From Caldovatus aquaticus (lineage in GTDB: Bacteria; Pseudomonadota; Alphaproteobacteria; Acetobacterales; Acetobacteraceae), in assembly GCF_019458025.1 (NCBI RefSeq), contig NZ_JAHZUY010000014.1:1-64000 (forward strand): a DNA stretch of 64,000 nt, given 5' to 3'. Position 1 is the first letter of the stretch. Every line of letters starts with the position of its first letter. The notes beneath the pieces were generated by a model. That model saw only the letters and a list, made by a program, of their open reading frames with translations. It ran no database searches and was not told the origin of the DNA. Positions 8,637 through 11,698 of the stretch are shown here, in pieces. Position numbers and translations under genes: made by a program.

Positions 8637-9500
8637 CTAGCGCGGCGCCAGCTCCACCATCACCGGCACGTGGTCCGAGGCCTGCGGCCAGCCGCGCGCG
8701 CGCCGCAGCACCACCTGGCCGCGCAGCGCGCCGGCGAGGTCCTGGCTGACCCAGATGTGGTCGAGCCGCCGCCCGCGGTCGGAGGCGGCCCAGTCGCGCG
8801 CCCGGTAGCTCCACCAGGTGTAGAGCTTCTCCGGCGGCGGGACGAAGTGGCGCACCGCGTCGTGCCACGCGCCGGCGCGCTGCCAGGCGGCGAGCGCCTC
8901 GACCTCGACCGGGGTGTGGGAGACGACGTCGAGAAGCTGGGCGTGCGACCAGACGTCGCATTCGAGCGGCGCGATGTTGAAGTCGCCCAGCACCACCATC
9001 CGCCGCGCCGGCCCGCGCGCGCGGGCCCATTCGGTCGCCTCGCGCAGGAAGTCGAGCTTATGGGCGAATTTCGGATTGGCCGCCGGATCGGGAACGTCGC
9101 CGCCGGCGGGGACGTAGAAGTTATGCAGCTCGATCGGCCCGCCCGGCGCGTCCAGCTCGACGCCGAGGTGGCGGCAGTCGCCCCTCGCGCACCAGTCCGG
9201 GTCGCCCTCGCGCGGCGCGAAGGGCAGGCGCGAGAGGATCGCCACGCCGTTGTAGCCCTTCATCCCGCGCGCCGCGATGTGCGGGAAGCCGAGCGCGGCG
9301 AGCGACTCGCGCGGCAGCAGCTCGTCCGGGCACTTGGTCTCCTGCAGGCAGAGCACGTCGGGCGCGAGGTCGGCGACGAGCTTCTTCAGCAGCGGCAGGC
9401 GCAGCCGGACGCTGTTGATGTTCCAGGTGGCGACGCGGATGGCGCGCCGCGCGGTCGCGCGCGCGACCGCCGGCGTCGCCCCCTTCCCCTCCCCGGCCAT
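8637..9500 (-). CDS. xthA: exodeoxyribonuclease III
   Basis: A 287-residue AP endonuclease/exonuclease of the base-excision repair pathway. The endonuclease/exonuclease/phosphatase fold shows its catalytic landmarks in order: ATWNINSVR, LQETKCPDE (metal-binding Glu), FNIAP within GDFNIAP, and SDHVPVMVEL (catalytic His). About 20 residues precede the core, so translation could start slightly later, but no other Met is available there. The FAA hydrolase gene ends 16 nt upstream on the same strand, so the two are probably co-transcribed. Confidence 0.92.
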   Translation of the reverse strand: MAGEGKGATPAVARATARRAIRVATWNINSVRLRLPLLKKLVADLAPDVLCLQETKCPDELLPRESLAALGFPHIAARGMKGYNGVAILSRLPFAPREGDPDWCARGDCRHLGVELDAPGGPIELHNFYVPAGGDVPDPAANPKFAHKLDFLREATEWARARGPARRMVVLGDFNIAPLECDVWSHAQLLDVVSHTPVEVEALAAWQRAGAWHDAVRHFVPPPEKLYTWWSYRARDWAASDRGRRLDHIWVSQDLAGALRGQVVLRRARGWPQASDHVPVMVELAPR

Positions 9501-9516: not shown

Positions 9517-10203
9517 TCACACGATCCGGCAGCGCACCTCGCCGACGCCCTCGACGAAGCCTTCGAGCAGGTCGCCGCGCTGCACCGCGGCCACCCCCTC
9601 CGGGGTCCCGGTCATGATCAGGTCGCCGGGCGCGAGGCGCACCAGGCGCGAGAGGTTGGCGATGATCTCCGGCACGCTCCAGATCATCTTCGCGAGGTCG
9701 CTCGCCTGCCGCAGCGCGCCGTTCACGCGCAGCTCGATGCGCCCGCGCGAGGGATCGAAGCCCTGCGCCGGGCGCAGCGCGCCGATCGGGGCGGAGCAGT
9801 CGAAGCCCTTGCCCATGTCCCAGGGGCGGCCGGTCTTCTTGGCCTCGTTCTGCAGGTCGCGCCGGGTCATGTCGAGGCCGGCGGCGTAGCCCCAGACGTG
9901 CCTCAGCGCGTCCGCCACGGCGATGTCGGCGCCGCCTTCGCCGATGGCGACGACGAGCTCCATCTCGTGGTGCAGTTCCCGGCTCAGCGGCGGGTAGGGC
10001 ATGTCGGCGCCGTTCACCACCACCGCGTCCGCCGGCTTGGTGAAGTAGAAGGGCGGCTCGCGCGTCGGGTCGGAGCCCATCTCGATCGCGTGCTCGGCGT
10101 AGTTGCGGCCGACGCAGAAGATCCGGCGCACCGGGAACAGCTGCGAGGAGCCCTGCACCGGCAGGGCGGGGATCGCCGGCGGGGCGATGACGTAGTCGGG
10201 CAT
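9517..10203 (-). CDS. fumarylacetoacetate hydrolase family protein
   Basis: A 228-residue soluble enzyme of the FAH superfamily, which cleaves or decarboxylates acylpyruvate-type substrates using a divalent metal. The core begins RRIFCVGRNYAEHAIEMG. The metal-binding E-x-E is visible in HHEMELVVAIG, with the conserved KGFD and TGTPEGV further on. Starting at 10203 (MPDYVIAPP) gives the normal length of the short acylpyruvase-like class (maleylpyruvate/fumarylpyruvate hydrolase or oxaloacetate decarboxylase). The substrate cannot be decided. It precedes xthA by 16 nt. The terminator and candidate RNA lie upstream of its start. Confidence 0.87.
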   Translation of the reverse strand: MPDYVIAPPAIPALPVQGSSQLFPVRRIFCVGRNYAEHAIEMGSDPTREPPFYFTKPADAVVVNGADMPYPPLSRELHHEMELVVAIGEGGADIAVADALRHVWGYAAGLDMTRRDLQNEAKKTGRPWDMGKGFDCSAPIGALRPAQGFDPSRGRIELRVNGALRQASDLAKMIWSVPEIIANLSRLVRLAPGDLIMTGTPEGVAAVQRGDLLEGFVEGVGEVRCRIV

Positions 10204-10409: not shown

Positions 10410-10444
10410 AAAAAAAGCGCCCGGACAGGGGGGTGTCCGGGCGC
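10410..10444 (-). terminator. intrinsic terminator of the candidate small RNA
   Basis: Perfect 11-bp arms GCGCCCGGACA (10417–10427) and TGTCCGGGCGC (10434–10444) enclose six bases. On the minus strand they are followed by seven T residues (10416–10410). It would also stop any read-through from the upstream glutamine amidotransferase gene. On the plus strand only a weak T-rich stretch follows. Confidence 0.85.
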
Positions 10445-10526
10445 CGTGTTATTGTTTTCCGATCGGAAAGGTCGGGCGAGCCGGCAGGGGACACCGGAGC
10501 TCGACCGTCGGCCGTATCCGGCCGAC
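10410..10526 (-). ncRNA. candidate small RNA (about 117 nt)
   Basis: A free-standing minus-strand transcription unit is visible. A promoter (TTGCGT, 17-nt spacer, TATTAT) points to a start near 10526. From its first base the RNA would form an 8-bp hairpin with a GAUA loop (10507–10526). A second, bulged hairpin follows (10477–10503, C-rich loop), then a TTTCCGATCGGAAA palindrome (10456–10469), an unpaired AACAAUAACA linker, and an 11-bp terminator with a CCCCCC loop and T7. No reading frame is present. C-rich exposed loops resemble those of alphaproteobacterial regulatory RNAs that pair with ribosome binding sites. I do not recognise it as 6S, SRP RNA, tmRNA or RNase P. Confidence 0.6.
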
Positions 10527-10532
10527 GCAAGC

Positions 10533-10561
10533 ATAATAGCGCCTTATCCACAGGGACGCAA
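10533..10561 (-). promoter_or_regulatory. promoter of the candidate RNA, with a DnaA box in its spacer
   Basis: On the minus strand TTGCGT (10561–10556) and TATTAT (10538–10533) are separated by exactly 17 nt. The spacer contains a perfect DnaA box, TTATCCACA on the plus strand at 10544–10552, where a bound protein would sit between the promoter elements. No second box occurs nearby, so this is not an origin. Confidence 0.55.
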
Positions 10562-10711
10562 AAGGGATTTTGCCCACTTTTGCGCGAGTTACCGCGCCCG
10601 TTCCCGGCGGCGCGGGACCGTGAACGTTCCGGCCGACGGACCGCCGCCGCCCGGCTTGGCCAAGCCCCCGCGTGCGGTCCGGGGGGCGAGGCCTGGCCGC
10701 CCGTCCCGATC

Positions 10712-11551
10712 CTATTCCGCGGCCTGCGGGAGGGGCTGGGCCTCCGCCGCCCGCCCGGCCCCCGGCGCTGCGGTCCGCCGCGCCGCCCAGGCGGCGACGG
10801 CGCGACCGAAGGCTTCGAAGATCGCCCGGCTGTTGCTGTCCTGCTCCCAGTCGTATTCGGGGTGCCACTGGACGCCCAACGCGAAGCCGGGCGCGTCGGC
10901 CACCCGCACCGCCTCGATGGTCCCGTCCGGCGCCCAGGCCTCGGCGATCAGCCGCGCGGCGAGGCGCGCCACGCCCTGGTTGTGCAGCGAGTTCACCGCG
11001 ATCGCGGCGCCGCGCGGCCCGGCGTCCCAGCCCGGCGGCAGCAGCGAGGCGAGCAGGCCGGCGCGGTCCACCCGCACGAGATGGGCCTTCGCGGTCCGCA
11101 CCGGCGCGTGCGGCTGGTCGGCCGGCGTGGCGTGGTCCAGCCGGCCCGGCAGGTCCTGGATGCGCTGGTCCAGCGTGCCGCCGAGCGCGACGTTCAGCTC
11201 CTGCATGCCGCGGCAGATCGCGAGCACCGGCAGCCCGGCGGCGATCGCGGCGCGGATCAGCGGCAGCGTGGTGGCGTCGCGCGCATGGTCCTCCGGCGTG
11301 CCCGCGGCGTGCGGCGGGCCGCCGTAGTGCCGCGGGCAGACATTGGAGCGGCTGCCGGTGAGGAGCAGGCCGTCGAGCCGCGGCAGGAGCTCCGCGGCCA
11401 GGCACGCGCCGGCGGCGGGCAGCAGCACCGGAACCGCGCCCACCGGGCCAAGCACGACCCGCACGTAGCTGTCCGAGGCTGCGTGATTGGGCGTGTTGAA
11501 GGGGCCGAACCCCTTCACGCAGCACGAGATTCCGACCAGCGGTCGCGGCAT
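10712..11551 (-). CDS. gamma-glutamyl-gamma-aminobutyrate hydrolase family (class I glutamine amidotransferase-like)
   Basis: A 279-residue peptidase C26 / PuuD-like cytoplasmic hydrolase. The nucleophile elbow is AICRGMQELNVALGG and the His–Glu pair is in GVQWHPEYDW, so all three catalytic residues are present. Starting at 11551 (MPRPLVGISC) places an AAGGAAG site 5 nt upstream; an upstream Met at 11563 is less well supported. PuuD homologues release GABA or similar amines from gamma-glutamyl conjugates in polyamine breakdown, but no other put genes are adjacent. The last 30 residues are low-complexity. Confidence 0.88.
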   Translation of the reverse strand: MPRPLVGISCCVKGFGPFNTPNHAASDSYVRVVLGPVGAVPVLLPAAGACLAAELLPRLDGLLLTGSRSNVCPRHYGGPPHAAGTPEDHARDATTLPLIRAAIAAGLPVLAICRGMQELNVALGGTLDQRIQDLPGRLDHATPADQPHAPVRTAKAHLVRVDRAGLLASLLPPGWDAGPRGAAIAVNSLHNQGVARLAARLIAEAWAPDGTIEAVRVADAPGFALGVQWHPEYDWEQDSNSRAIFEAFGRAVAAWAARRTAAPGAGRAAEAQPLPQAAE

Positions 11552-11698
11552 GTCTTCCTTCATCGCCCGCGGGCGTGGCGGGATCAAGGCAGATCTCCCC
11601 GCGCGCGCAACAAGCCCGCTCCCCGGGGTTCGCATGCCACGGCCGCCGGCGCGAGGCGACGCCCCCTGTGGCGCCGCTGCGGCGCGGGCGGCGCCGGG

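Follow-up and report, generated by a model that had tools for sequence, protein, structure and literature searches.

The segment from position 10526 to 10410 on the minus strand of the window, the 64,000-nucleotide stretch of Caldovatus aquaticus DNA that was analysed, is a real small RNA (sRNA) gene. It very probably encodes a trans-acting regulatory RNA that belongs to the RusT family and represents it in Acetobacteraceae, because its locus, its length, its four stem-loops and the UCCCCU motif in the second loop match those of RusT.

Structure of the small RNA gene and its promoter

On the minus strand a promoter was followed by three hairpins (8-bp, bulged and small, in this order), an A-rich linker, a terminator hairpin and a T run (Table 1). 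From the sequence reading, the start was predicted at about 10526 and the end of the U-run at about 10410, corresponding to 117 nt. The folding energy of this segment was -65 kcal/mol versus -42.5 +/- 3.8 kcal/mol for shuffled sequences (z-score -5.98), and 0 of 200 shuffles equalled it. An independent small RNA at this place had been proposed in an earlier note; the fold agreed with this proposal, as did conservation and covariation in relatives. The promoter, the 8-bp and bulged hairpins and the terminator were located where the note had placed them. However, it had counted three stems, whereas four were found, stem-loop 3 (10469-10456) having been missed in front of the A-rich linker; its terminator with a C6 loop was recovered with a stem of 12 pairs instead of 11.

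The sRNA is predicted to be made from its own sigma-70-type promoter and to end at its own terminator. The ideal spacing that had been claimed for a sigma70-like promoter was found (17-nt spacer), whereas the -35 box had been overstated, since TTGCGT is a poor box, with only three consensus bases out of six. A scan with a strict promoter consensus did not list this promoter. The promoter elements TTTTGC and GCTAT/GCTAAT were kept in the upstream regions of relatives, and CTTTTGC occurred in 12 of 22 Acetobacteraceae upstream regions versus 0.7 in shuffles.

Mechanically called open reading frames run across the sRNA segment. The indels among related copies were not multiples of three, which indicated that the segment is not coding, in agreement with the absence of a protein-coding frame noted earlier.

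Table 1. Features of the sRNA locus in the window.
Feature	Position	Strand	Basis
sRNA gene, very probably RusT family, ~117 nt	10410..10526	-	fold, relatives, covariance models
-35 element TTGCGT, within conserved CTTTTGC	10556..10561	-	sequence and relatives
-10 element TATTAT, 17-nt spacer	10533..10538	-	sequence; aligned GCTAT/GCTAAT in relatives
Inverted repeat GCAAAATCCCTTTTGC overlapping the -35 region, candidate operator, lineage-specific	10558..10573	-	enrichment versus shuffles
Stem-loop 1, 8-bp hairpin, sequence variable, pairing kept	10507..10526	-	fold and covariation
Stem-loop 2, carries seed loop	10470..10506	-	covariation, 67 members
UCCCCU in loop 2, proposed base-pairing seed, equivalent of RusT loop nt 45-57 (C53)	10486..10491	-	conservation
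Stem-loop 3, small hairpin UUUCC-GAUC-GGAAA, putative Hfq-binding element by analogy	10456..10469	-	fold
Stem-loop 4, intrinsic terminator, 12-bp stem	10416..10445	-	terminator scan and covariation
CCCCCC terminator loop, possible second pairing site	10428..10433	-	conservation
Terminator U-run	10410..10415	-	sequence
Class C26 gamma-glutamyl hydrolase-like (PuuD-like) gene, upstream neighbour	10712..11635	-	PF07722 1.7e-62
Fumarylacetoacetate (FAA) hydrolase family gene, downstream neighbour, start approximate	9517..10203	-	PF01557 2e-54
Exodeoxyribonuclease III gene (xth), downstream neighbour	8637..9500	-	TIGR00633 above cut-off

Distribution, covariation and gene neighbourhood

A DNA search of 100 related genomes revealed the sRNA in its own genus and in other genera of Acetobacteraceae. 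The covariance model R1, built from 14 sequences, detected it in 85 of 299 Acetobacteraceae genomes; the remaining 214 gave no match to R1, through loss or divergence. Weaker R1 matches were obtained in 41 other genomes of the class, not all of which are members, since several of them lacked the neighbours and the seed. For stem-loops 2 to 4 a further model (R2) was built on a diverse set of 31 sequences. At E <= 0.001, and counted by E-value alone, 83 of the 385 genomes searched in the class had a match to R2; the window, which belongs to its seed set, scored 69.6 bits. Pattern hits in Actinobacteria and other phyla were rejected as members; they had similar terminators only and no conserved neighbours.

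The sRNA is a conserved RNA with strong covariation in its stems. In an alignment of 67 members, which was fitted to the model and thus leans towards structure, 83.7% of the cells were in standard pairs, and the covariation score was 0.399 versus 0.183 in shuffles and at most 0.127 with the partners slid. Sequence-only alignments agreed more weakly (0.289 versus 0.175 for A8, 0.270 versus 0.135 for A5), and RNAalifold on A8 recovered the terminator stem alone, with 6 of 11 pairs compensatory. The earlier note had suggested a search for stem covariation with covariance models, which yielded two-sided changes at 21 of the 25 pairs over the 67 members, and had named missing conservation in close relatives as evidence against the RNA; promoter, stems and terminator were all kept.

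Two-sided changes were found at 4 of 6 pairs of stem-loop 1 in Acetobacteraceae and, among the 67 members, at all 10 modelled pairs of stem-loop 2 and at 7 of 11 pairs of the terminator stem, where 99.5% of the cells were paired. Inner terminator pairs changed together (A-U, U-A, C-G; C-G, G-C, U-A). The loops were far more constant: UCCCC(U/C) was present in loop 2 of 63 of the 67 members, TCCCCT of this loop was invariant in the alignment of Acetobacteraceae relatives, and so was ACCCCCCT around the terminator loop in the alignment of relatives.

Further variation was observed within the stems. On the 3' side of stem-loop 2 (10484-10470), CCGGCUCGCCCGACC was nearly invariant in the window and the Acetobacteraceae relatives, while its 5' partner drifted and sometimes mispaired with it (GGUCG to GGACG); therefore the conservation of this strand may serve more than base pairing. 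In the Roseomonas-type lineage, TTCCGATCGGAA in stem-loop 3 (10469-10456) is perfectly palindromic as DNA; in other lineages this hairpin differs in sequence. Seven loci (L057, L059, L075, L076, L087, L239, L245) formed a branch with AUCCCCUCC in loop 2 and a GCGC-type stem-loop 3; in L059 and L245, the neighbour found was a MOSC-domain gene in place of lolA/xth.

Analysis of all loci by tblastn gave the gene order lolA, C26, sRNA, FAA hydrolase, xth, with losses. This order was shared by Roseomonas, Roseicella, Neoroseomonas, Azospirillum, Paramagnetospirillum, Novispirillum, Insolitispirillum, Caenispirillum and others. At least one conserved neighbour was present in 61 of the 67 aligned members, with strand and side always as expected (on the upstream side LolA in 36 and C26 in 41; on the downstream side FAA hydrolase in 29 and xth in 36), and in 27 of 30 loci fetched with R2, many of them from genomes already in the model. 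lolA was not found within the window, which keeps the C26/FAA/xth part of the locus alone. In transcriptome papers on Azospirillum and Gluconobacter, the terms for the sRNA neighbour genes were absent from the main texts.

Relationship to RusT

The earlier note recognised no named RNA family. This holds for the curated families, as no Rfam family reached its threshold for the sRNA (ar7, ar14, ftsZ-DE, SNORA77 and others stayed below cut-off), but the literature does contain a named relative, RusT (PMC11005374). RusT (CCNA_R0199) of C. crescentus is an RNA of 118 nt encoded between lolA and xth, with four stem-loops of which the last is a Rho-independent terminator; Hfq binds to its stem-loop 3 (published site nt 73-84), and the conserved seed lies in loop 2 (nt 45-57), where C53 has been probed by a point mutation (PMC11005374). 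It was described in 2024, with orthologues reported within Caulobacteraceae only (PMC11005374).

The window sRNA resembles RusT in length (117 versus 118 nt), in its four stem-loops with the terminator as the last, in the UCCCCU of loop 2 (for RusT, read from Caulobacteraceae copies) and in its place on the xth side of the locus, here with the FAA hydrolase gene between. The host genome likewise encodes Hfq and NtrYX, the genes for NtrY, NtrX and Hfq lying within a few kilobases of each other. The common model R2 recognised the window RNA as well as Caulobacteraceae copies: with no lolA-xth Caulobacteraceae RNA knowingly included in its seed set, its hits in Brevundimonas lutea (40.2 bits, E 6e-8) and in a second Caulobacteraceae genome (33.2 bits) both fell between lolA and xth, and the five best R2 hits of a scan of 80 Caulobacteraceae genomes were all located between lolA and xth. 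In the Caulobacteraceae copy L284, four stem-loops were found, loop 2 was exactly nt 45-57 (ACUAUAUCCCCUC), UCCCCU corresponded to nt 51-56 with C53 inside, and stem-loop 3 lay over the published Hfq site nt 73-84; these nucleotide numbers were counted on L284 with an assumed start, and C. crescentus RusT was compared by its published description. From this comparative in silico analysis we infer that the window RNA and the Caulobacteraceae lolA-xth RNA form one family.

However, the two RNAs also differ. In the window the RNA is flanked by the C26 and FAA hydrolase genes, the stem sequences are different, and primary-sequence identity to the Caulobacteraceae copies was low outside UCCCCU and the terminator stem. 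The terminator loop, CCCCCC here, had this sequence in only 3 of the 12 Caulobacteraceae copies listed.

Predicted mode of action and control

RusT represses mRNAs through its loop 2 in an Hfq-dependent manner; NtrX acts on RusT as a direct repressor, and RusT is induced by iron starvation or zinc; its targets are mostly outer-membrane transporters, and it represses TonB-dependent receptors and OmpW (PMC11005374). By analogy, the window sRNA is inferred to be expressed, bound by Hfq, under the control of NtrYX and repressing mRNAs of outer-membrane transporters, with loop 2, assisted by Hfq, as the probable means of mRNA repression. Following the RusT model, Hfq would probably be held by the U-rich end together with stem-loop 3. 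Stem-loop 2 would pair through its exposed UCCCCU with G-rich stretches at or near the starts of target mRNAs, and this pairing would block translation or accelerate decay. The least certain steps are that NtrYX, encoded beside hfq, might relieve repression upon a disturbance of iron or envelope homeostasis, and that the main targets might be outer-membrane transporters such as TonB-dependent receptors.

As the earlier note had argued, C-rich loops suit pairing with G-rich start regions. The GGGGAGGG sites of the window, to which it had pointed, gave no evidence of this: GGGGAGGG was not enriched as a target signature (7 sites in the window versus 6.8 expected). One site in the window had AGGGGA seven bases before an ATG. 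The note had also put forward the terminator loop as a pairing site; C-rich loop pairing as such fits the analogy with RusT, which supports primarily the UCCCCU of stem-loop 2 and not the terminator.

The C6 terminator loop was present in 60 of the 67 members, which were from outside Caulobacteraceae. That this loop hardly varies while the adjacent pairs covary suggests that it has its own function, and it may add a second contact. A possible but rather unlikely extension, put forward tentatively, is that the Acetobacterales/Rhodospirillales-type RNA is a two-seed RusT variant. The C6 loop would then be a second functional pairing or protein-binding site, lacking in most Caulobacteraceae copies, so that the G-rich start sites under control would be others, or more numerous.

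Palindromes were enriched in the upstream regions of the sRNA. GCAA-N5..9-TTGC occurred in 6 of 22 Acetobacteraceae upstream regions versus 0.66 in shuffles, and in none of 43 elsewhere. At 17 of 43 non-Acetobacteraceae loci (versus 1.4 in shuffles) ATGC-N4..7-GCAT was found, often followed by another ATGC (for example in L085, L060, L117, L082 and L127). CAA-N3..5-TTG is an NtrX-type site; as an upstream signal it was rejected, being present in 5 of 80 regions versus 10.3 in shuffles, that is, below shuffles. As the upstream palindromes differ by lineage, control by NtrX may not be common to the family.

Alternatively, the main partner of the conserved C-rich loops could be a G-rich small RNA that they sponge, instead of mRNAs, as in the CrfA-SisA pair of Caulobacter. 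Such pairs do occur in the class, where C-rich seeds of ar8 RNAs are sponged by the G-rich CrfA (PMC12559287). RusT, however, represses mRNA reporters directly, with compensatory mutations for two targets (PMC11005374), and we regard a role mainly as a sponge as very improbable.

Comparison with other C-rich RNA families

The sRNA might be a divergent member of the anti-Shine-Dalgarno families ar7 (Smr7C), ar14 (NfeR1/CcsR-type) or ar8 (MmgR/SisA-D) that inherited its C-rich loops, as all three have C-rich loops in hairpins and a terminator at the end, and the Rfam model of ar7 aligned over its full length. The scores, however, were far below the gathering thresholds (31 bits versus 60 for ar7, 26.1 versus 58.8 for ar14). 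With ar7 (Smr7C/SmelC023, RF02342) the sRNA shares C-rich hairpin loops and the terminator end, but S. meliloti Smr7C (sra03) is located at polA, not xth, whereas the window sRNA lies beside C26, FAA hydrolase and xth. The ar7 model gave no hit in any of 142 genomes of the class, the source genome among them; the controls were equally silent, so this search is uninformative on Rhizobiaceae. Its near-hits in Rhodobacteraceae were mostly CCUCCUCCC hairpin arrays without lolA, xth or C26 neighbours. For ar14 (NfeR1 and CcsR-like arrays, RF02344), C-rich loops read as anti-Shine-Dalgarno are the common feature, but the ar14 loops are CCUCCUCCC, which the window sRNA lacks, and the neighbours differ. 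The ar8 RNAs (MmgR, SisA-D) have a C-rich conserved element and are Hfq-associated in the studied cases; however, MmgR is about 77 nt long, and the single-stranded UUUCCUCCCU core and the N-formylglutamate amidohydrolase (FGase) neighbour that ar8 requires were both absent at the window sRNA. The resemblance of the three families to the window sRNA is thus one of C-rich loops only, and common membership is very improbable.

Two kinds of C-rich arrangement were seen among other loci below these cut-offs. Rhodobacteraceae-like loci (L199, L205-L217) had long tandem CCUCCUCCC hairpin arrays of the CcsR/cuckoo type (below the ar7 and ar14 cut-offs), and L200 (G077, small-genome family f19) encoded a three-hairpin RNA with CCUCCC-type loops that scored 46 bits with ar14.

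The segment could also belong to the transcript of the neighbouring operon as a leader or 3' end, such as an attenuator between the C26 and FAA hydrolase genes. This would fit the common strand and conserved order of the neighbours but is very improbable, as the sRNA has promoter elements and a terminator of its own, stays while its flanks vary (C26 or FAA hydrolase lost; lolA and xth directly in Caulobacteraceae), and has at the same place in C. crescentus an independent, Hfq-bound transcript, RusT (PMC11005374).

Significance of the probable RusT-type RNA

With the window segment assigned to the RusT family, RusT-type RNAs with the same locus, architecture and seed would occur across many alphaproteobacterial families, including Acetobacteraceae and relatives of Azospirillum and Magnetospirillum, a wider distribution than published. 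A family model, a seed and a locus are now available, so that RusT function becomes testable outside Caulobacter. The distribution points to an old post-transcriptional layer, which may be linked to NtrYX and to the control of iron and the envelope.
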